From positions 33,367 through 59,638 of IMG/VR virus record IMGVR_UViG_3300029319_000024: a stretch of DNA of 26,272 bases; one strand, written 5' to 3'. This DNA is from a virus. The notes beneath the pieces were generated by a model. The model was given only the letters and a program-made list of their open reading frames with translations. It was not told where the DNA came from and did not search any database. Shown piece after piece: positions 1 through 21,968 of the stretch (position 1 is the stretch's first letter; every line of letters begins with the position of its first letter). The translations under genes and the position numbers were made by a program.

Positions 1-1
1 T

Positions 2-85
2 CATGAAAAGGCTAAAGATATTCTTTGGGAATATATCTCTGATAAAGACATTCAAGAAATAGATGAAAGGTTATCTAAAATATAA
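2..85 (+). CDS. 3' end of a truncated rightward gene, unknown function
   Basis: An open frame runs in from the left edge and stops with TAA. It gives the last 27 residues of a protein, ending in IDERLSKI, charged and probably helical. Its start lies outside the window, so neither length nor family can be judged. A rho-independent terminator follows 18 bases after the stop, which supports a real gene end. I do not recognise the tail and assign no function. Confidence 0.5.
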   Translation, partial: HEKAKDILWEYISDKDIQEIDERLSKI

Positions 86-103
86 AACCAAAAAAAAAAT
101 TTA

Positions 104-128
104 GGGCAGTTTATCTGCCCTTTTTTTT
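104..128 (+). terminator. Rho-independent terminator after the left-edge gene
   Basis: A perfect 6-bp stem (GGGCAG 104-109, CTGCCC 115-120) with loop TTTAT is followed by eight T (121-128). A run of A (90-99) lies upstream, so the hairpin could also work for leftward transcripts that read past the stronger leftward terminator at 263-290. Confidence 0.85.
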
Positions 129-141
129 GCCTTGAAAAATG

Positions 142-212
142 TGCGACCTTCTGCGTTCTTATAAGATTTTGCGACCTTGTGCGTGCGATTTGAAATGTGC
201 GACCTTTGGCGT
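142..212. repeat. Three iteron-like 15-bp direct repeats, exact 28-bp period
   Basis: Copies at 142-156 (TGCGACCTTCTGCGT), 170-184 (TGCGACCTTGTGCGT) and 198-212 (TGCGACCTTTGGCGT) begin exactly 28 bp apart and differ only at two or three internal positions. Bases between them diverge more, although AAATG precedes copies 1 and 3. They lie in non-coding DNA between the terminators of converging transcripts, so coding constraint does not explain them. A shortened related copy lies at 2249-2261. Roles to consider are binding sites for a replication initiator, a regulator or the packaging machinery. Confidence 0.75.
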
Positions 213-262
213 GGATAAAATAGTTTGGGATCTAAAAACCCGATCAATAAAACTCCGGGCAT

Positions 263-290
263 AAAAAAAGGGAGCATTTCAGCTCCCTTT
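263..290 (-). terminator. Terminator of the leftward small-gene operon
   Basis: A 6-bp GC-rich stem (270-275 with 282-287), extended by three A-T pairs, closes a 6-base loop. Read on the minus strand it ends in a run of seven T (complement of 263-269). It lies about 80 bases downstream of the last leftward gene, just after the three-hairpin element. The core stem GGGAGC/GCTCCC is the same as in the terminator after the major capsid gene (11692-11707). Confidence 0.85.
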
Positions 291-298
291 AGTTGTAT

Positions 299-358
299 TT
301 AAGTTTGGAGAACTTAACATCTATAGATATATAGATGACCGAATAATACAACTTCGGT
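299..358 (-). ncRNA. Three abutting perfect hairpins, candidate structured 3' UTR RNA or DNA element
   Basis: Three perfect inverted repeats tile this stretch without gaps: 338-343/353-358 (ACCGAA/TTCGGT, 9-base loop), 318-325/330-337 (CATCTATA/TATAGATG, loop GATA) and 299-305/311-317 (TTAAGTT/AACTTAA, 5-base loop). The loop of the first (345-352) is also complementary to 292-299, giving a possible pseudoknot or alternative fold. The element lies between the stop of the last leftward gene and that operon's terminator, so it would be the 3' untranslated region of the leftward transcript. Function is unknown. It matches no RNA family I can name, and it could act as DNA, for example in an origin with the repeats at 142-212. 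Confidence 0.55.
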
Positions 359-368
359 AATAGATTGT

Positions 369-578
369 CTACTCAAAATCACTAGCCAACCACTCAACGC
401 GGCCGAAGTCATTGACCAGATCAGCAACTGACCTATTCAAATTAAACTTCTTTCTGTTTTCCAAATCACACTTGGCTAGTGCCATATGTAAGTTGTCAAC
501 GGCCTTAGCCAAATCGTCGGCTCTTGTTTCCGGGATTCCCCGATCAATAAGCTCTTGCTTATAGCTTTTTTCTATCAT
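369..578 (-). CDS. Small phage protein, unknown function (69 aa), last gene of leftward operon
   Basis: The start chosen is the internal ATG at 578 (MIEKSYKQ...). It overlaps the upstream stop as ATGA and has GAGG about seven bases upstream. The longer reading from 602 would run deep into the previous gene with no better ribosome site. The product is charged and mostly helical by composition (RADDLAKAVDNLHMAL), with one Cys and no membrane segment or recognisable motif. It is the promoter-distal gene of seven leftward mini-genes. Such early-region genes often encode host-takeover proteins, but nothing here shows that. Confidence 0.7.
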   Translation of the reverse strand: MIEKSYKQELIDRGIPETRADDLAKAVDNLHMALAKCDLENRKKFNLNRSVADLVNDFGRVEWLASDFE

Positions 579-802
579 TCTTTTTCCTCGTAATAAGTCC
601 AATAATATAAATCACTATCTCCGTGATTTTCCCATTCTTTTTGTGCTTGTTTAAAAGTTTCTTTTCCTAATATTTGCTTTACGCATTTTTCAGAACATAC
701 TGTCTCACTATCTCCAACAACATAAAGGCCCTTGTTTTGGTCTAGCTTATCAATAGAAGTATTACAAACTTCGCAATTTACAATCCATGTTTCAACACTC
801 AT
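575..802 (-). CDS. Small putative zinc-binding protein (75 aa)
   Basis: The protein has a CxxC knuckle at residues 10-13 and a second cysteine pair, CSEKC, at 36-40. This spacing suits a single treble-clef or zinc-ribbon fold, which is inferred from cysteine placement only. The remainder is acidic and aromatic (DLYYWTYYEEKE at the C-terminus). Its stop overlaps the next gene by four bases and its start lies three bases after the stop of the preceding gene, showing a tightly packed operon. A nucleic-acid or protein contact role is plausible but not shown. Confidence 0.7.
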   Translation of the reverse strand: MSVETWIVNCEVCNTSIDKLDQNKGLYVVGDSETVCSEKCVKQILGKETFKQAQKEWENHGDSDLYYWTYYEEKE

Positions 803-805
803 AGC

Positions 806-1042
806 TTACCCCCAAATCTCAGGATTGAAGTCATCTTCCTGGAGTTCAGGAAATTTTTTTAATGCTTCTTCTTTACAATAGACATCAAAATCAACGTCAA
901 ATATTCCACCATGTCCAACTCTTTGAATAACTCCATTTGTGAAAATAGTAGCGTGTTTGTGTTCTAATTTATCATTCTCATGTAAACAGTAATCCAGATC
1001 AAGCTCTTGGCCTGTCACATCACAAAAATATTTAATACTCAT
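806..1042 (-). CDS. Small phage protein, unknown function (78 aa)
   Basis: This leftward frame starts MSIKYFCDVTGQEL. Its GGGAG ribosome site lies inside the 3' end of the preceding gene, and only two bases separate that gene's stop from this ATG. The product is acidic, with three Cys (about 7, 19, 56) and several His (HENDKLEHKHA), so metal binding is conceivable. No standard zinc-finger spacing is present. FCDVTGQEL resembles the start of a degenerate zinc-knuckle domain in which the second Cys became Thr; this is a weak resemblance. No signal peptide or membrane segment is visible. Confidence 0.65.
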   Translation of the reverse strand: MSIKYFCDVTGQELDLDYCLHENDKLEHKHATIFTNGVIQRVGHGGIFDVDFDVYCKEEALKKFPELQEDDFNPEIWG

Positions 1043-1044
1043 AA

Positions 1045-1311
1045 TTATTTACTCCCATAATCATATTTTAAAATATCGTATATTAATAAATCCCACTCAT
1101 AGTCATAGCAGTCTTTCCAAAGTTCGTGCTTGTATCTGCCACCGTCTACTAATTCCTGATCAATAAAATAATCATAATCAATCTCTCCGTCATCAGACCA
1201 ATGGCCGTAGGCTTCAAAAGTTCCTACGGCTAACTCAATCTTGAATGAAAACTCATAAGCTTCAGTTCTCCAAAGATAATGATTTTTTAAATCTTCTTTT
1301 GACATACTCAT
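1045..1311 (-). CDS. Small acidic phage protein, unknown function (88 aa)
   Basis: The product is strongly acidic and rich in Tyr and Trp (ELWKDCYDYEWDLLIYDILKYDYG), with no membrane segment or known motif. Its start overlaps the end of the preceding gene by four bases (1308-1311), typical of translational coupling. High Asp/Glu with aromatic residues is also seen in some phage proteins that mimic DNA or bind host polymerase, but that is a compositional resemblance only. The ATG two codons downstream (MSKEDLK) is an equally possible start. Confidence 0.65.
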   Translation of the reverse strand: MSMSKEDLKNHYLWRTEAYEFSFKIELAVGTFEAYGHWSDDGEIDYDYFIDQELVDGGRYKHELWKDCYDYEWDLLIYDILKYDYGSK

Positions 1312-1580
1312 ATCTTCACCCCCAATGATTTAATTTCTCTAGTGCCTTTCGGCAATAAAGCTCTTTTGATTAATACATCATCAACATAAAAGCGATACTC
1401 CCGATCTCCGTTCTCCAGGATTTTATGAGTCGTTCTATGATTTAAGAAGTGGTGAGAGTTAGAGCCACTTGTCCCGATCCTGATTTCTACTTCTCCCCTT
1501 TCTCTTACTCCATAAGATTTGCTAGCCTTATAAATACAGGACGTTATATTATTCCATATTGGATATGATTTACTTGACAT
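1308..1580 (-). CDS. Conserved small phage protein, unknown function (90 aa)
   Basis: The frame starts MSSKSYPIWN and is preceded by GGGAGAACTAAAAG, a strong ribosome site shared almost exactly with two upstream genes of the operon. The basic, beta-rich sequence has the stretch GTSGSNSHHFLNHRTTH and then YRFYVDDVLIKRALL. This looks like short hypothetical proteins I associate with marine phages, but I cannot confirm the family. No catalytic motif, signal peptide or membrane helix is visible. It overlaps the next gene by four bases. Confidence 0.7.
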   Translation of the reverse strand: MSSKSYPIWNNITSCIYKASKSYGVRERGEVEIRIGTSGSNSHHFLNHRTTHKILENGDREYRFYVDDVLIKRALLPKGTREIKSLGVKI

Positions 1581-1583
1581 CTT

Positions 1584-1742
1584 TTAGTTCTCCCTTTTAT
1601 TTTTTCTAATGCTCTTTACTTGCTCTTGGCATTCTTTAGAACATTCTTCTATTGGTTTGTTAGATAAAAAATACTCCATCAAAGGATATTTTTTATTTTG
1701 TTTATTTATTTGCTTTTTGTGATATTCAAATATATCTTTCAT
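1584..1742 (-). CDS. Very small lysine-rich protein, unknown function (52 aa)
   Basis: Read on the minus strand, ATG at 1742 is preceded by GGGAGAACTAAAAA and the frame stays open for 52 codons (MKDIFEYHKK...KNKREN) to TAA at 1584. The stop lies three bases before the next gene's start, and the ribosome site matches those of its neighbours, which supports translation. The product is basic with two Cys (34 and 38, CSKEC). CxxxC alone does not define a zinc site. No function can be given. Confidence 0.6.
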   Translation of the reverse strand: MKDIFEYHKKQINKQNKKYPLMEYFLSNKPIEECSKECQEQVKSIRKNKREN

Positions 1743-1782
1743 TTTTTAGTTCTCCCTGATCAGTAATTCCTGATCATAAAAT

Positions 1783-1800
1783 AGGGGGATTGCTCCCCCT
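1783..1800 (-). terminator. Hairpin between first and second leftward genes: weak terminator or attenuator
   Basis: A perfect 7-bp stem (AGGGGGA 1783-1789, TCCCCCT 1794-1800) has a 4-base loop and lies seven bases after the stop of the first gene. On the minus strand it is followed only by ATTTTAT, a poor U-tract. It may therefore attenuate, letting part of the transcription continue into the six downstream genes, or protect a processed 3' end. Confidence 0.55.
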
Positions 1801-1807
1801 GTTAATA

Positions 1808-2077
1808 TTAATATCCTGCCCTTGACAGCATATCGTTAATTTCCTTTAGTTCTTTCAAAGACAGTTTTTTAAGTGCCTTATCATTAACTAAACTTCCATC
1901 TTGCCACGCTTTTAAGTCGTTGGCTTTATTCCAATTATCAATATAGGACTTTGGATTTTTAATATATGAAACAAATTCTTTTGCTTCTTTATAAGTTCCA
2001 AATTCTTGGATAACTCCGTCATCTTCAACTTGATAAACAGTTATGTTATCTTGAATTACTTTTTTTATTTTACTCAT
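1808..2077 (-). CDS. First gene of leftward operon, unknown function (89 aa)
   Basis: The ATG at 2077 has CGGGAGAACTTAATA upstream, with the ribosome site GGGAG at a normal distance. The product has a basic N-terminus (MSKIKKVI), a short beta-like part (ITVYQVEDDGVIQEF) and then helical, Lys-rich segments ending LSLKELKEINDMLSRAGY. No known domain is recognised. It is promoter-proximal and separated from the other six genes by a strong hairpin, so it is likely the most highly expressed of the set. Roles as a small regulator or host-interaction factor are only possibilities. Confidence 0.7.
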   Translation of the reverse strand: MSKIKKVIQDNITVYQVEDDGVIQEFGTYKEAKEFVSYIKNPKSYIDNWNKANDLKAWQDGSLVNDKALKKLSLKELKEINDMLSRAGY

Positions 2078-2120
2078 TATTAAGTTCTCCCGGCTTCCGC
2101 CTATTAAATAATAATGTCTT

Positions 2121-2151
2121 ATTATAACACTATTTATACACTTATAGACAA
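2121..2151 (-). promoter_or_regulatory. Putative promoter of the leftward operon
   Basis: On the minus strand a perfect TATAAT box (complement of 2121-2126) is preceded by TTGTCT (complement of 2146-2151). The spacing is 19 bp, longer than the ideal 17, so the -35 match is moderate. Initiation would fall near 2114, giving a leader of about 35 bases before the ATG at 2077. The surrounding DNA is very AT-rich. Confidence 0.5.
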
Positions 2152-2165
2152 ATTAAATTAATTAA

Positions 2166-2187
2166 TTGATTGGGTATTTGATTGGGT
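2166..2187. repeat. Two direct repeats TTGATTGGGT, 12-bp period
   Basis: Identical 10-mers lie at 2166-2175 and 2178-2187, just upstream of the putative leftward promoter. Their position between divergent operons suggests paired binding sites for a regulator. With only two copies of a 10-mer, chance cannot be excluded. Confidence 0.4.
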
Positions 2188-2232
2188 CTCTATTGAATCG
2201 GAAGCCGTTTTTTTGTGATCAGGAATCGGACA

Positions 2233-2328
2233 CCCCCACCCCCATATATGCGACCAGGCGTTTTTTCGCGGCAGTATATAAATAACTATCAACAAATATA
2301 ATTACCCCCAAAACCATTTCACCCCCCC
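2233..2328. other. Divergent intergenic region with C-tracts and a fourth TGCGACC motif
   Basis: Non-coding DNA between 2078 and 2388 holds four C-runs (2233-2237, 2239-2243, 2305-2309, 2322-2328), unusual in this AT-rich sequence. A related repeat, TGCGACCAGGCGT at 2249-2261, matches the outer parts of the left-edge repeats with two bases missing. A 9-bp inverted repeat pairs 2091-2099 with 2199-2207. The place, directly upstream of the terminase gene, is where a packaging (pac or cos) site or origin could lie. I see no open reading frame worth calling. Confidence 0.45.
2274..2302 (+). promoter_or_regulatory. Possible promoter of the rightward morphogenesis operon
   Basis: A perfect TATAAT occurs at 2297-2302, with TATATAAATA at 2275-2284 just upstream. 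No good -35 hexamer lies at the correct distance, so this is a weak call that would need either an activator or a phage-specific polymerase. It is the only plausible -10 element in front of the terminase gene, and some promoter is expected here because the leftward operon diverges. Confidence 0.3.
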
Positions 2329-2339
2329 TTGCTTTAATT

Positions 2340-2362
2340 AGGTACCATAATGAGGTACCATA
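2340..2362. repeat. Direct repeat AGGTACCATA, 13-bp period, ahead of terminase
   Basis: Identical 10-mers at 2340-2349 and 2353-2362 each contain the palindrome GGTACC. They flank the ATG at 2350. If the terminase starts at 2389, as preferred here, the repeats lie in its leader and could be operator or translational-control sites. They may equally be a chance pair. Confidence 0.4.
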
Positions 2363-2388
2363 TTTCACATGGAGAGAAACATTTTAAG

Positions 2389-3861
2389 ATGTCTGACAAA
2401 AACACAAAGCTAGAACACGTATCAGACGAGGCTCTAAAAGAGATGGTCATGATCAAAAATCGTATTGATCAGCTAGACACCAGCAAAGAATCAAAAAAAG
2501 ACTTCATAGCCTATGTAAAAAATGTATGGGACGGCTTTATCGAGGGCGAACACCATAGATTGTTTGCCAGAAAGCTAGAAGACGTAGCCAAGGGCAAGAC
2601 CAAACGCCTAATCGTCAACATGCCACCTCGTCATACCAAGTCTGAGTTTGCGTCCGTGTTCTTTCCTAGCTGGATTATGGGCTTGCACCCTGATATGAAG
2701 ATCATGCAAACGACTCACACCGCCGAACTATCTGCAAGGTTTGGTCGTAAGGTTAGAAATCTCATGGATACAGACGAATATAAGCAAATATTCGACAAAG
2801 TTAGACTCTCTGCTGACAGCAAATCAGCAGGTAGATGGGAAACCAATCACGGTGGCGAGTATTTTGCCGCAGGAGTGGGCGGTGCTATTACAGGTAGGGG
2901 TGCGGATCTGCTGATTATTGACGATCCACACTCTGAACAGGACGCTTTGAGCCCAACTGCCCTAGAATCTGCCTACGAATGGTACACTTCTGGGCCGCGA
3001 CAGCGTCTGCAACCTGGCGGAATCATAGTTATTGTCATGACAAGGTGGAGTACGCTTGATCTAACTGAGAAACTTATCAAAAGAATGTCTGAAGACCATG
3101 CAGATCAGTGGGATATACTAGAATTACCTGCCATTTTGGACAACGGCAAGCCTTTATGGCCTGAGTTTTGGAAAATAGAAGAGCTTGAGTCCGTGAAAGC
3201 CTCGATTCCTGTAGCAAAATGGAATGCTCAGTACATGCAGAACCCAACTTCTGAAGAAGGTGCCCTGTTAAAACGAGATTGGTGGCAACAATGGGAGCAT
3301 GACGATCCACCTAATACAACTTACATATTGCAATCTTACGATACCGCCTTTAGTTCTAAAGAAACGGCTGACTACTCTGCGATTACTACGTGGGGAGTGT
3401 TTCGACCGAGTGACGGTGCACCAGAATCTATCATTTTGCTCGATGCCAAACGAGGTCGGTGGGACTTTCCTGAGTTGAAAGCGACAGCTTACGATGAATT
3501 TATGTATTGGCAACCAGACTCAGTGCTGATAGAATCACAAGCAAGTGGTACTCCTTTGACGCATGAGTTGAGAATGATGGGGATCCCAGTTGTGAACTAT
3601 CGTCCAACGAAAGGAAGAGACAAAGTCACTCGAGTGCATTCGGTATCGCCAGTGTTTGAAGCTGGTATGGTCTGGGCTCCAGACACGATCTTCGCAGAAG
3701 AGGTGATAGAAGAATGTGCAGCCTTTCCGTATGGAGAGAACGATGATTTTGTAGATTCGACAACACAGGCTATACTAAGATTTCGTCAGGGCAACTTCGT
3801 AAGACTTGATTCAGATGAGGAAGACGATGAGCCAGTGCCGAAACAGAGAATATACTATTAG
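2389..3861 (+). CDS. terL: Terminase large subunit (DNA packaging ATPase-nuclease)
   Basis: TerL is the motor that pumps DNA into the prohead through the portal and cuts the concatemer. Numbering from the ATG at 2389 (490 aa), the ATPase part has a Walker A-like loop MPPRHTKS at about 78-85 and Walker B LLIIDDPHS at about 174-182. The RNase H-like nuclease part has acidic residues in QSYDTAFS (about 318), LIESQASG (about 382) and NDDFVDS (about 452-457). The start at 2389 follows GGAGAG at long spacing (12 bases) and gives a family-like N-terminus. The ATG at 2350 would add 13 residues and has only AGG upstream, so the start is uncertain. No small terminase is recognisable beside it. Confidence 0.95.
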   Translation: MSDKNTKLEHVSDEALKEMVMIKNRIDQLDTSKESKKDFIAYVKNVWDGFIEGEHHRLFARKLEDVAKGKTKRLIVNMPPRHTKSEFASVFFPSWIMGLHPDMKIMQTTHTAELSARFGRKVRNLMDTDEYKQIFDKVRLSADSKSAGRWETNHGGEYFAAGVGGAITGRGADLLIIDDPHSEQDALSPTALESAYEWYTSGPRQRLQPGGIIVIVMTRWSTLDLTEKLIKRMSEDHADQWDILELPAILDNGKPLWPEFWKIEELESVKASIPVAKWNAQYMQNPTSEEGALLKRDWWQQWEHDDPPNTTYILQSYDTAFSSKETADYSAITTWGVFRPSDGAPESIILLDAKRGRWDFPELKATAYDEFMYWQPDSVLIESQASGTPLTHELRMMGIPVVNYRPTKGRDKVTRVHSVSPVFEAGMVWAPDTIFAEEVIEECAAFPYGENDDFVDSTTQAILRFRQGNFVRLDSDEEDDEPVPKQRIYY

Positions 3862-4095: not shown

Positions 4096-6549
4096 ATGGC
4101 AGATGTAGACAAGGCTATTACCTTTGAAGATCAGGTAGAACTAGGAGTTCGTGATCGTTCAAAGGAAATGGAGATTGAGGTCGAGGAAGAAAATCCTGAT
4201 CTTGAAGAGTTTGAGCAAATGGAAGACGGTACCATTATGTTTGGTGCTCCCACACCGCCTGTAGATGATACTGATTTTTACTCTAACCTAGCAGAACAAC
4301 TAGATTCCTCTGATCTTAGCACCATTAAAAACGACTTAATGACTAATGTTGATTCTGACAAAGACTCAAGATCTGATTGGGAAAAGACTTACAGAGAAGG
4401 TCTTGAACAGTTAGGCATGAAGTACGAAGAAAGATCCCAACCATTTGAAGGTGCTTCTGGAGTGATGCATCCTTTATTGGCAGAATCCGTTACTCAGTTC
4501 CAAGCACAGGCCTACAATGAGTTACTCCCATCTCAAGGGCCTGTCAAAACTCAAGTCTTGGGTATGACAACGGCTGAATCTGAGCAACAAGCATCGAGAG
4601 TTCAGGAGTTTATGAACTATCAGCTTATGCAGGTTATGAAAGAGTATGACTCTGAAACAGACCAAATGTTATTTTATTTACCATTATCAGGTTCTGCGTT
4701 TAGAAAAGTTTATTACGATCAAAACCTAGACAGGGCTGTATCTAAATTCATACCTAGTGAGGACTTAATTGTGCCTTACTCGGCTACTGACTTGCATAGT
4801 GCTACGAGGATTACGCATGTAATTGATATGTCGCTAAACGATATTAAAAAACTACAACAAGTAGGATTTTATCGTGATGTAGATATATCTATGGGTAATA
4901 TCATGGCGGATGACTATGATGAGATTCAAGAAGAAGTAGATGAATTACAAGGTGTCAGCCCTAACTACAACGATACTGATACTTGTAAAGTACACGAAAT
5001 ACATACTGAATTAGATATACCGGGCTTTGAGGATTTAGATTCAGAAGGCGAGCCTACTGAGATCAAACTGCCATACATAGTTACCATTGCTAATGATAAG
5101 GTTTTATCTATTCGTAGAAACTACAAAGAAACAGATCAATTAAAGCAACGTATTAACTACTTTGTGCACTATAAGTTTTTACCAGGTCTAGGATTTTATG
5201 GCTTTGGTTTGACGCACATGATAGGTGGCTTGTCTAAAGCATCTACTTCAATACTAAGACAGTTAATTGATTCAGGTACTTTATCTAACTTACCTGCTGG
5301 ATTTAAAGCTAGAGGCATACGTATTCGTAACGATGATCAGCCATTACAACCTGGTGAGTTTAGAGACATGGATGCTCCTGGCGGAAGTTTGCGAGACGCT
5401 TTCGTACCGTTACCTTTTAAGGAGCCAAGTCAAACCTTACTCTCTCTCCTAGGTATCTTGGTCGACAGTGGAAGGCGTTTCGCCTCGATAGCCGATACAC
5501 AAGTAGGAGACAGTAATCAAAATGCACCTGTAGGTACAACGATTGCGTTGCTAGAGCGTGGTACTAGAGTGATGAGTGCAATTCACAAAAGACTGCACGC
5601 ATCTCAAAGAATTGAGTTTGAAATACTAGCTAAAGTATTTAGTGAGTATTTACCACCTGATTATCCTTATCTTACTGCTAACGGCAACCAACTTATTAAG
5701 TCGCAAGACTTTGATGACAGAGTTGATGTCTTACCAGTTTCAGATCCTAATACCTTCTCTATGAGCCAAAGGGTTATGATGGCTCAAGAAATACTTAGAA
5801 CCGTACAAAGTAATCCTGAGATACATGGCCCAACAGGGTTGCATGAGGCTTATCGAAGAATGTACGGTGCTATGGGTGTGCAGAACATAGAACAGCTTTT
5901 GCCACCACCACCTCAACCACAACCTATGGATCCTGCAAATGAAAATGCAATGTTGATTGCAGGTATGCCTGCTCAAGCTTTTTTAGGTCAAGACCATGAT
6001 GCCCATATCAATTCGCACATGTCCTTGTATGGAACTATGACAGCACAAGCTAATCCTGTAGTGTTATCTTTGATTCAAGCACATATCTATCAACATGTAT
6101 CTTTTAGGGCTGCTGAAATAGTTGATGAGCAAAACGCACAAAACCAAGAGTTCCAACAAATGATGCAACAAATACAACAGTTGCCGCCTGAGGTTGCACA
6201 AGGGTATCAACAGCAGATACAAGAAAAAGTGGCTAAAGATGTTGCTGCGGTGGTATCGCAACTTACTGAACAGATCAATGCTATGTTTATGCCACCACCA
6301 CCTCCTGTTGATCCATTGGTAGAATTAAGAGATAAAGAACTAGATATTAAAGCTGATGATGTGCAACGTAAACGTGAAGAATTTGCACAAAGACAAGAGT
6401 TTGATGCTATGAAGGCTATGGAAAATAATAAACTTGCAGAACAAAGATTGGCAATTCAAAGAGAAATAGCTACAATGAAAGATGATATAGCTAGAGAGCG
6501 TATGGATCAAGCCGCACAATTTAAAGCTATGGATATAATGCGAGGATAA
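4096..6549 (+). CDS. Portal protein, P22-like
   Basis: This protein should form the dodecameric ring at one capsid vertex through which DNA enters and leaves. At 817 aa it is near the length of P22-type portals (about 725 aa) and far larger than lambda- or HK97-type ones. An acidic N-terminus (1-75) leads into SDWEKTYREGLEQLGM and PFEGASGVMHPLLAES (about 93-131), which I recognise from P22-like portals of marine phages. The later part is Gln/Pro-rich with polyproline stretches (about 605 and 735). A charged coiled-coil C-terminus (about 745-817) would suit the internal barrel of P22 portal. It lies directly after terL, as expected. Confidence 0.9.
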   Translation: MADVDKAITFEDQVELGVRDRSKEMEIEVEEENPDLEEFEQMEDGTIMFGAPTPPVDDTDFYSNLAEQLDSSDLSTIKNDLMTNVDSDKDSRSDWEKTYREGLEQLGMKYEERSQPFEGASGVMHPLLAESVTQFQAQAYNELLPSQGPVKTQVLGMTTAESEQQASRVQEFMNYQLMQVMKEYDSETDQMLFYLPLSGSAFRKVYYDQNLDRAVSKFIPSEDLIVPYSATDLHSATRITHVIDMSLNDIKKLQQVGFYRDVDISMGNIMADDYDEIQEEVDELQGVSPNYNDTDTCKVHEIHTELDIPGFEDLDSEGEPTEIKLPYIVTIANDKVLSIRRNYKETDQLKQRINYFVHYKFLPGLGFYGFGLTHMIGGLSKASTSILRQLIDSGTLSNLPAGFKARGIRIRNDDQPLQPGEFRDMDAPGGSLRDAFVPLPFKEPSQTLLSLLGILVDSGRRFASIADTQVGDSNQNAPVGTTIALLERGTRVMSAIHKRLHASQRIEFEILAKVFSEYLPPDYPYLTANGNQLIKSQDFDDRVDVLPVSDPNTFSMSQRVMMAQEILRTVQSNPEIHGPTGLHEAYRRMYGAMGVQNIEQLLPPPPQPQPMDPANENAMLIAGMPAQAFLGQDHDAHINSHMSLYGTMTAQANPVVLSLIQAHIYQHVSFRAAEIVDEQNAQNQEFQQMMQQIQQLPPEVAQGYQQQIQEKVAKDVAAVVSQLTEQINAMFMPPPPPVDPLVELRDKELDIKADDVQRKREEFAQRQEFDAMKAMENNKLAEQRLAIQREIATMKDDIARERMDQAAQFKAMDIMRG

Positions 6550-6552
6550 TTT

Positions 6553-6789
6553 ATGAGTTCAGTTAGACAAAAAGCACAAGCCATACACAAGGCTATGTTA
6601 AAAAAAGAAGAGGAAATACTAAATGGTAATCAACCGATCATCAATGAAGATGCAAATAACGAAACCGAAGTCAAAGAGACTAAAGAAAAAACGGTCAAAA
6701 AAACTTCGACTAAAGCGAAAACTAAAAAGGTAACTAAGTCAGCTCCTAAAAAAAGAGGCAGACCTAAGGGATCTAAAAATAAAAAATAA
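6553..6789 (+). CDS. Small AT-hook protein (78 aa)
   Basis: A helical, charged N-terminus (1-25) and a low-complexity Glu/Thr/Lys linker lead into a canonical AT-hook at residues 67-76, KKRGRPKGSK, whose RGRP core binds the minor groove of AT-rich DNA. The gene lies three bases after the portal stop, with GAGG as ribosome site. In this AT-rich genome the protein could bind phage DNA during packaging or condense it inside the head. This role is inferred from the motif alone. The C-terminal half would be disordered without DNA. Confidence 0.8.
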   Translation: MSSVRQKAQAIHKAMLKKEEEILNGNQPIINEDANNETEVKETKEKTVKKTSTKAKTKKVTKSAPKKRGRPKGSKNKK

Positions 6790-20925: not shown

Positions 20926-21258
20926 ATGGCAGTATCAAAAGCGATAGTTGGTTGTACACCTTATGTAAACTCATCTAATAAAGTAGATAAGTGGACTATA
21001 GAAATGAAATATGAAAACGATAGTGAGGGTGATAGCACTTACTATACTCATACTTTTAACACTACAGTTAAACAACTTGATGATGATGGAAATGCTAACT
21101 TTACATTAAAAGCTAAAGGTAGTTGGACTAATGCTAATTTAGTAGCTATATGTCCTGTATCAGAATGGGATGTAGTTTTTGCTAGTCAAGTAGATAGCGT
21201 TATTACTAACCCACCAGCAGTAAGCACACCAGATAATAATTTTAACGTACCTAGTTAA
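20926..21258 (+). CDS. Small fibre-associated protein, unknown function (110 aa)
   Basis: The gene starts one base after the fibre stop, with AAGGAG within the fibre's last codons as ribosome site. The product is beta-rich, with Lys/Asp/Asn and Trp (DKWTIEMKYENDSEGD; TLKAKGSWTNANLVAICPVSEWD), and ends in a Pro/Asn-rich tail. It resembles a small protein I have seen after tail fibres in marine phages. It may be a fibre chaperone or distal tip; nothing in the sequence settles this. Confidence 0.7.
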   Translation: MAVSKAIVGCTPYVNSSNKVDKWTIEMKYENDSEGDSTYYTHTFNTTVKQLDDDGNANFTLKAKGSWTNANLVAICPVSEWDVVFASQVDSVITNPPAVSTPDNNFNVPS

Positions 21259-21281
21259 ATATGACTAAAGGAGAGTTTTTG

Positions 21282-21968
21282 ATGCATACTATGCCTGCGG
21301 TATATGTGTTAGAAACACAAATGCCACAGCAAATGATTGATGATGTTAATGATTATATGGATGAGTATAGAGAAGATAAAAACAAAGAATCATTAGCAAA
21401 AACTTTAGTAGGACAAATAGATAAAGGAGAACAATTACTGTTAGACCACAATGATAAAAGAATGGTTGAGTATAATAGTTTTATCTGTCAGCTTGGTGCT
21501 GAATATATTAATCATTTTAGTAAGTCAGGGAATCGTCTTAAAGGTGATAAACAAGTTCAAATAGACGAAACTTGGTCAGTGCATAGTTATGACGGTGATT
21601 ACAATCCTATACATGACCACGGCACTAAAACATTAATGGGTATATCTACTACAGCTTGGACTAAAGTACCACCGCAAATAGGTGCTAAAGCTAATGCTAA
21701 TTCTCCAACTTATTCATTGTATAATGAAAGTGGACATTCAGACGGCTGTATAGCGTTTCAATACGGACAAGTTTCAGTTATAGACGCAGAAAGATTAAAA
21801 CCAGCTCAATCATTTGTTATGACTCCAGAAGTAGGAAAACTATTAGTGTTCCCTTCTTGGTTACAACACATGGTCTATCCCTTCAAAGGTGAAGGCGAAA
21901 GACGAACTATCGCATCCAACTTAAATTGTTGGGATGTGCAAACAACTACACCTAAGGAGGTGCAATAA
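21282..21968 (+). CDS. 2-oxoglutarate/Fe(II)-dependent oxygenase (putative)
   Basis: The start is ATG at 21282 (MHTMPAVYVLE), six bases after AGGAGAG; the ATG at 21261 lies upstream of that ribosome site and is unlikely. The protein (228 aa) fits the PF13759-type 2OG-Fe(II) oxygenase pattern, with NPIHDHG (H111 and H113 candidates for iron) followed by a long gap. Next comes FPSWLQHMVYPF (distal H196), then GERRTIASN, whose Arg (about 207) would bind 2-oxoglutarate. This family hydroxylates proteins or small molecules. Its placement beside the fibre suggests a virion or host-metabolism substrate, which is inferred only. Confidence 0.75.
   Translation: MHTMPAVYVLETQMPQQMIDDVNDYMDEYREDKNKESLAKTLVGQIDKGEQLLLDHNDKRMVEYNSFICQLGAEYINHFSKSGNRLKGDKQVQIDETWSVHSYDGDYNPIHDHGTKTLMGISTTAWTKVPPQIGAKANANSPTYSLYNESGHSDGCIAFQYGQVSVIDAERLKPAQSFVMTPEVGKLLVFPSWLQHMVYPFKGEGERRTIASNLNCWDVQTTTPKEVQ

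Follow-up and report, generated by a model that had tools for sequence, protein, structure and literature searches.

Small RNAs (sRNAs) with an anti-Shine-Dalgarno (anti-SD) loop are known from Alphaproteobacteria, the CcsR or 'cuckoo' RNAs among them. NfeR1 is another such RNA (PMC10746234). OppZ and CarZ of Vibrio cholerae are autoregulatory sRNAs derived from 3' UTRs, from which they are cut out by RNase E (PMC7398697). Phage regulatory RNAs include OOP and aQ of lambda, VpdS of VP882, 24B_1 and StxS; each of OOP and aQ is cis-antisense to a single gene, VpdS reportedly acts on RNAs of host and phage alike, and the reviewed phage RNAs are mostly of one or other of these kinds, as far as a limited search of the open-access literature extends (PMC12197685).

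The locus described here lies in a window, the whole 26,272-nt stretch of DNA that was analysed, which is part of a 73.9-kb virus record (G000). We read it as a self-targeting phage sRNA gene that represses leftward, early-type operons, and give this reading a probability of about 0.6. Like OppZ and CarZ, the predicted RNA is located at an operon's end, shares the operon's terminator and would pair with the translation starts of its own operon; unlike them, it has an apparent promoter of its own, is phage-borne and is also aimed at neighbouring operons, and there is no sequence relation. It resembles the reviewed phage RNAs in being short and in its presumed regulation of phage development, which in those RNAs proceeds mostly through base pairing, but unlike OOP, aQ and VpdS it is predicted to be a trans-type sRNA aimed at several operon leaders of its own phage. 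With the anti-SD sRNAs of Alphaproteobacteria, such as NfeR1, it has in common SD-complementary hairpin loops and an intrinsic terminator; it differs from them in its loop (CUCCA versus CCUCCUCCC), in the second pairing segment in its linker and in being phage-encoded. By analogy, its mode of action would resemble that of trans-acting anti-SD sRNAs and of the feedback sRNAs OppZ and CarZ, and on balance we favour a new family of phage sRNAs, directed at their own leftward operon leaders and without sequence relation to a known family. If this is right, one 75-nt gene can suffice for RNA antisense control to coordinate several of a phage's operons, and uncultured phages provide a predicted regulatory RNA with a concrete, easily tested seed/target pair.

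The terminase is 59-62% identical to those of Pelagibacter phages HTVC023P/027P and phage 023Pt_psg01; the element is carried by uncultured marine-type phages, terminase-related to HTVC023P-type pelagiphages. None of the genes of the leftward operon that ends at the element (Table 1) has a Pfam match above cut-off. In relatives the next leftward operon starts about 0.4-0.5 kb downstream of the element, in the same direction; in the window's record a gene cassette is present between the two. A third leftward operon encodes a helicase, a Cas4-type exonuclease and ssDNA-binding proteins, and it is because of gene content that we infer the leftward operons to be early-type. Divergent from this third operon is the gene of a 65-aa Cro/CI-like HTH regulator (record positions 21158-21355, plus strand), whose leader (21060-21157) carries the ribosome-binding site (RBS) GGAGAACTATG and a 9-bp inverted repeat, GGTGTGGGT/ACCCACACC; the regulator is conserved in genomes G001 and G003.

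Table 1. Features of the element, its predicted targets and the operon that ends at it (window coordinates).
Feature	Position	Strand	Details
Predicted sRNA, 75 nt	263-337	minus	hairpin 2, hairpin 3, linker, terminator; in 8 further contigs
Putative -35 hexamer TAGACA	366-371	minus	TTGCAA in second group of relatives
Putative -10 hexamer TATTAT	343-348	minus	within hairpin-1 loop; TATCAT in most relatives
Hairpin 1	358-338	minus	ACCGAA-N9-TTCGGT, perfect 6 bp
Hairpin-1 DNA dyad over -10 box	338-358	minus	candidate operator, or pseudoknot S1 in read-through transcripts
Hairpin 2	337-318	minus	CATCTATA-TATC-TATAGATG, perfect 8 bp, loop UAUC; same in 9/9 loci
Hairpin 3	317-299	minus	TTAAGTT-CTCCA-AACTTAA, perfect 7 bp; loop CUCCA = 310-306
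Linker, single-stranded	291-298	minus	AUACAACU, with A at 299 before it; relatives have RAUACA(A)C
Intrinsic terminator	263-290	minus	stem 290-267, T run 269-263; common to sRNA and leftward operon
Leftward operon	369-2077	minus	small genes of unknown function; ends at element
First gene of leftward operon	1808-2077	minus	
Second gene of leftward operon	1584-1742	minus	
Third gene of leftward operon	1308-1580	minus	
Predicted target, GGAGAACUUAA at first-gene RBS	2080-2090	minus	-19.5 kcal/mol, rank 2/102 gene starts
Weaker predicted target, GGAGAAC RBS of second gene	1749-1755	minus	-13.2 kcal/mol
Weaker predicted target, GGAGAAC RBS of third gene	1587-1593	minus	-13.2 kcal/mol

The sequence-only reading had described three perfect, abutting hairpins followed by a terminator and held such tiling to be hard to explain by chance. 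All four structures are in place, and the minus strand from 255 to 365 folds at -32.6 kcal/mol, outside the range of shuffled sequences (mean -16.05, sd 3.46; z -4.78; 0 of 200 shuffles equal). RNAalifold, given nine homologues, returns the same four tiled hairpins; the nested minimum-energy fold of the window sequence alone opens hairpin 1 and favours pairing of its loop. The 8-bp pairing of that loop with the segment beyond hairpin 3, proposed as a pseudoknot or a switch between folds, fared less evenly: its two strands, GUUGUAUU and AAUACAAC, are present in the window, but only 5-6 bp of it (S2) are conserved among relatives, and the case for a switch is weak because the conserved S2 spans no more than this. 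The anticipated compensatory changes are found: two in hairpin 1, which occurs in the states ACCGAA/TTCGGT and AGCCAA/TTGGCT (the latter in three relatives), one in the loop pairing (U-A to C-G) and two in the terminator, where two pairs are changed on both sides and G-U variants also occur. As to the exonuclease-resistant 3' end also suggested, exoribonuclease-resistant RNAs (xrRNAs) block 5'-3' exonuclease by a ring-like pseudoknot fold, and the element has no specific sign of one in sequence or structure; no paper linking these terms came up in the literature search. No Rfam 15 covariance model scored above its gathering cut-off, the best on the element strand being PsrR1 (18.1 bits vs 42).

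The element is present in nine phage contigs, the window's record and eight further. A protein search with the operon's last gene gave three loci, every one with the element; separate DNA patterns (hairpin 3; hairpin 2; a loose hairpin-1/2 motif) recovered the same eight contigs together with unrelated chance matches, and the two independent means of retrieval agree on the contig set. Since the window's last gene is missing upstream, or the contig is cut off, in five of the eight relatives, the element is a module. A covariance model run over 0.8 Mb of relatives brought no further members, its weak matches being plain terminators, and neither a bacterial genome collection nor a distant blastn search of the region against known phages gave a match. 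Hairpins 2 and 3 are invariant at 38 of 38 positions in the nine loci, while the flanks and hairpin 1 vary. Judged from these alignments, the structure of the element is under selection, because hairpins 2-3 are invariant, compensatory changes occur and RNAalifold recovers all four hairpins. The nine loci form one lineage, so that replications across genomes are not independent.

A putative sigma70-type promoter (371-343, minus strand) has the form TAGACA-17-TATTAT, a 10/12 match with a 17-nt spacer, a score equalled at a fixed start by ~0.1% of random genome positions (p about 0.001). A second group of relatives has TTGCAA-17-TATCAT in the same place, its -35 matching at 4/6 with the same spacing (at least 4/6 is reached by chance in about 4-5%), and the homologous block common to both groups starts at the -35 hexamer. 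Transcription would begin at ~337-336, the first bases of hairpin 2; with this start, the invariant part would be the beginning of the RNA and hairpin 1 the -10 region. Hairpin 1 is thus probably not part of the working RNA: as it overlaps the -10 box, it is probably promoter or operator DNA, or belongs to read-through RNA only. The 75-nt segment alone folds at -24.9 kcal/mol (z -6.92, 0 of 200 shuffles). A small RNA released from the operon had been one of three functions put forward for the array; it is the best supported of the three, with the amendment that the RNA probably has its own promoter and does not arise by release from the operon only. The promoter motif would argue against exclusive processing, both routes being possible.

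Within the predicted RNA, CUCCA (the hairpin-3 loop) and RAUACA (the linker) are unpaired, and the only other exposed segments are the hairpin-2 loop and the terminator loop. UUAAGUUCUCC (317-307) is the exact complement of GGAGAACUUAA, the RBS of the operon's first gene, and the linker complements both the hairpin-1 loop and UUGUAUY, a motif of the next leftward operon's leader. In all nine loci UUGUAUY and GGAGAAC follow one another in that leader as pairing with linker and loop requires. GGAGAAC, the complement of which lies in hairpin 3, is the RBS of the leader genes around the element. Near the element are 29 of the 33 GGAGAAC-ATG sites of element-bearing records; the distant ones are all of the form GGAGAACTATG, in three records at the start of the HTH regulator gene. 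Homologues of the third gene carry GGAGAAC in 4 of 4 cases with the element versus 0 of about 50 without it.

Energy ranking replaced longest-match statistics in evaluating these matches; the longest exact match is not significant, 11 nt being reached by about 3-7% of controls. With a 38-nt query segment, picked after the match was seen, the two flanking operon leaders come first and second among 102 gene starts, their duplex energies being -19.6 and -19.5 kcal/mol; of 5000 random genome segments, none equals the value for the leader of the next operon and 4 equal the sum for both leaders. The flanking leaders of four other genomes rank 2 and 4 of 90, 4 and 2 of 62, 1 and 2 of 53, and 4 and 3 of 42, a top-four placing matched by 0-1 of 300 random segments per genome. 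Pairing is also predicted with the third leftward operon's leader (-16.4 in this phage, -22.4 in G003) and with the start of the Cro/CI-like HTH gene (-16.1). When self-folding of the RNAs competes (cofold), 8 of 150 shuffles equal the five-target sum, and the flanking leaders drop to ranks 4 and 9. The accessible seed is complementary to translation starts better than chance, and more weakly so when folding competes.

That the sRNA is transcribed from its promoter, pairs with its targets in the cell and represses them, and when it does so, we infer along the following lines. The weak sigma70-type promoter would give an RNA of ~75 nt, running from hairpin 2 to the terminator at 269-263, with hairpin 2 guarding its 5' end. 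The loop of hairpin 3, weakly closed (-2.4 kcal/mol), would offer CUCCA, with RAUACA(A) as a single-stranded linker; this loop, extended by stem opening to UUAAGUUCUCC, would pair with the GGAGAAC RBS, and the linker with UUGUAUY close to the leader's 5' end, so that the sRNA would cover the first-gene translation starts of both flanking leftward operons. Since its exposed bases match the RBSs of the operons' first genes, it probably lowers those genes. The same loop could reach the leader of the third leftward operon and the small HTH regulator gene. The likely outcome would be that early-type operons are repressed, the sRNA's own by feedback, with an early-to-late shut-off as a possible further effect.

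At the SD match there is no sRNA-target covariation across the loci, because target and sRNA are both invariant there, and none is seen across phages between linker base and leader base. In relatives L104, L105, L106, L111 and L112, which lack the element, several genes have one and the same RBS, GGAGAAG-TA(A)ATATG; these relatives offer no covariation partner for it, a bare terminator standing at the end. A shared RBS motif therefore needs no sRNA, and RBS cassettes appear to be homogenised within these phages without one. A GGC-GNRA-GCC tetraloop hairpin precedes the SD of the first-gene leader by 0-2 nt, in the window (2091-2105, minus strand) and in relatives alike, the GNRA loop being GGAA, GAAA, GUAA or GUGA in different phages; it is a predicted conserved structured ribosome-binding site.

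The element lies directly 3' of the operon's last gene, and it might instead be the operon's 3' UTR, an H-type pseudoknot and terminator shielding the mRNA 3' end or yielding a stable fragment, with base-pairing to targets secondary; this is the leading alternative, and we consider it unlikely. In this pseudoknot S1 would be the hairpin-1 stem, S2 would join loop GUAUY to the RAUAC that follows hairpin 3, and the third loop would contain hairpins 2-3. Two double changes leave S1 paired and one leaves S2 paired, the two stems are sterically compatible, 99.7% of alignment cells are paired, the observed covariation is reached by 0 of 500 shuffles, and the geometry fits (L1 2-3 nt, S2 5-6 bp, L2 1 nt). 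S2 hangs on that single evolutionary change, however, and the pseudoknot leaves unexplained the sequence invariance of hairpins 2 and 3, the promoter-like motif in hairpin 1 and the matches of exposed segments to leaders; moreover, relative to shuffled controls, the RNA that starts at hairpin 2 folds better than the stretch with hairpin 1 (z -6.92 vs -4.78). Its formation would depend on read-through transcription, and it could possibly coexist with the sRNA, masking the linker. The -10 box of the putative promoter carries the same UGUAUY as the target leader. A combination, rather doubtful in our estimate, would make the sRNA a master translational switch that shuts all leftward early-type operons at once, and the pseudoknot a lock that masks the seed in read-through mRNA only; sRNA and mRNA 3' UTR would then be alternative, differently active products of one locus.

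Less probable again is a protein-binding role for the invariant hairpins 2-3, with a translational regulator or RNA chaperone of phage or host as partner and the complementarity to leaders as a by-product of SD-rich sequence. Invariance of stems and loops alike is typical of protein-binding RNA, and CUCC fits any SD, but the match is longer than GGAG, with 11 nt at the first gene and the linker match in the next leader, and in five genomes the flanking leaders come first or close to it in the ranking. An improbable reading of similar standing takes hairpins 1-3 as palindromic DNA sites (operators, an origin or a recombination site) whose RNA folding is incidental: each is a perfect dyad, the -10 box lies within hairpin 1, whose arms change together as in an operator, and a repeat array lies just downstream, but the hairpin-1 dyad has no second copy within the 73.9-kb record, the hairpin 2/3 junction is unique there even with three mismatches allowed, and the terminator follows directly, with G-U pairs, an RNA feature. 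The HTH regulator, considered as reader of the dyad, was rejected: the protein is nearly identical, its helix region included, in phages with different dyads, and it does not covary with the dyad in the genomes compared. An origin or recombination site, the third of the functions put forward, found no positive support, despite the array.

That short-repeat array (ACGCA-n-GGTCGCA) occupies positions 135-235 of the window, 2280-2389 of L081 and 12512-12621 of L094, among others, and in all element-bearing contigs it has the terminator on one side and the next leftward operon's promoter on the other; it may possibly represent iterons or an origin. Contig L005, found by a pseudoknot descriptor scan, also has a similar adjoining array; it was rejected as a sequence-unrelated structural homologue (fold z -0.02, not operon-terminal). 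In the window's record a rightward cassette (record positions 33097-33451, its 3' end at window 1-85) sits in the middle of the array, with its own promoter, a GGAGAACTTAATTATG start and a terminator at window 103-128; it is absent from relatives and includes ten Ns of an assembly gap. Parts of the structural module are present in the record as two diverged copies, 1-3660 / 61074-64727 and 4915-6553 / 55933-57583, with 80% and 68% identity; the record may be a join of two related genomes or contain a duplication.
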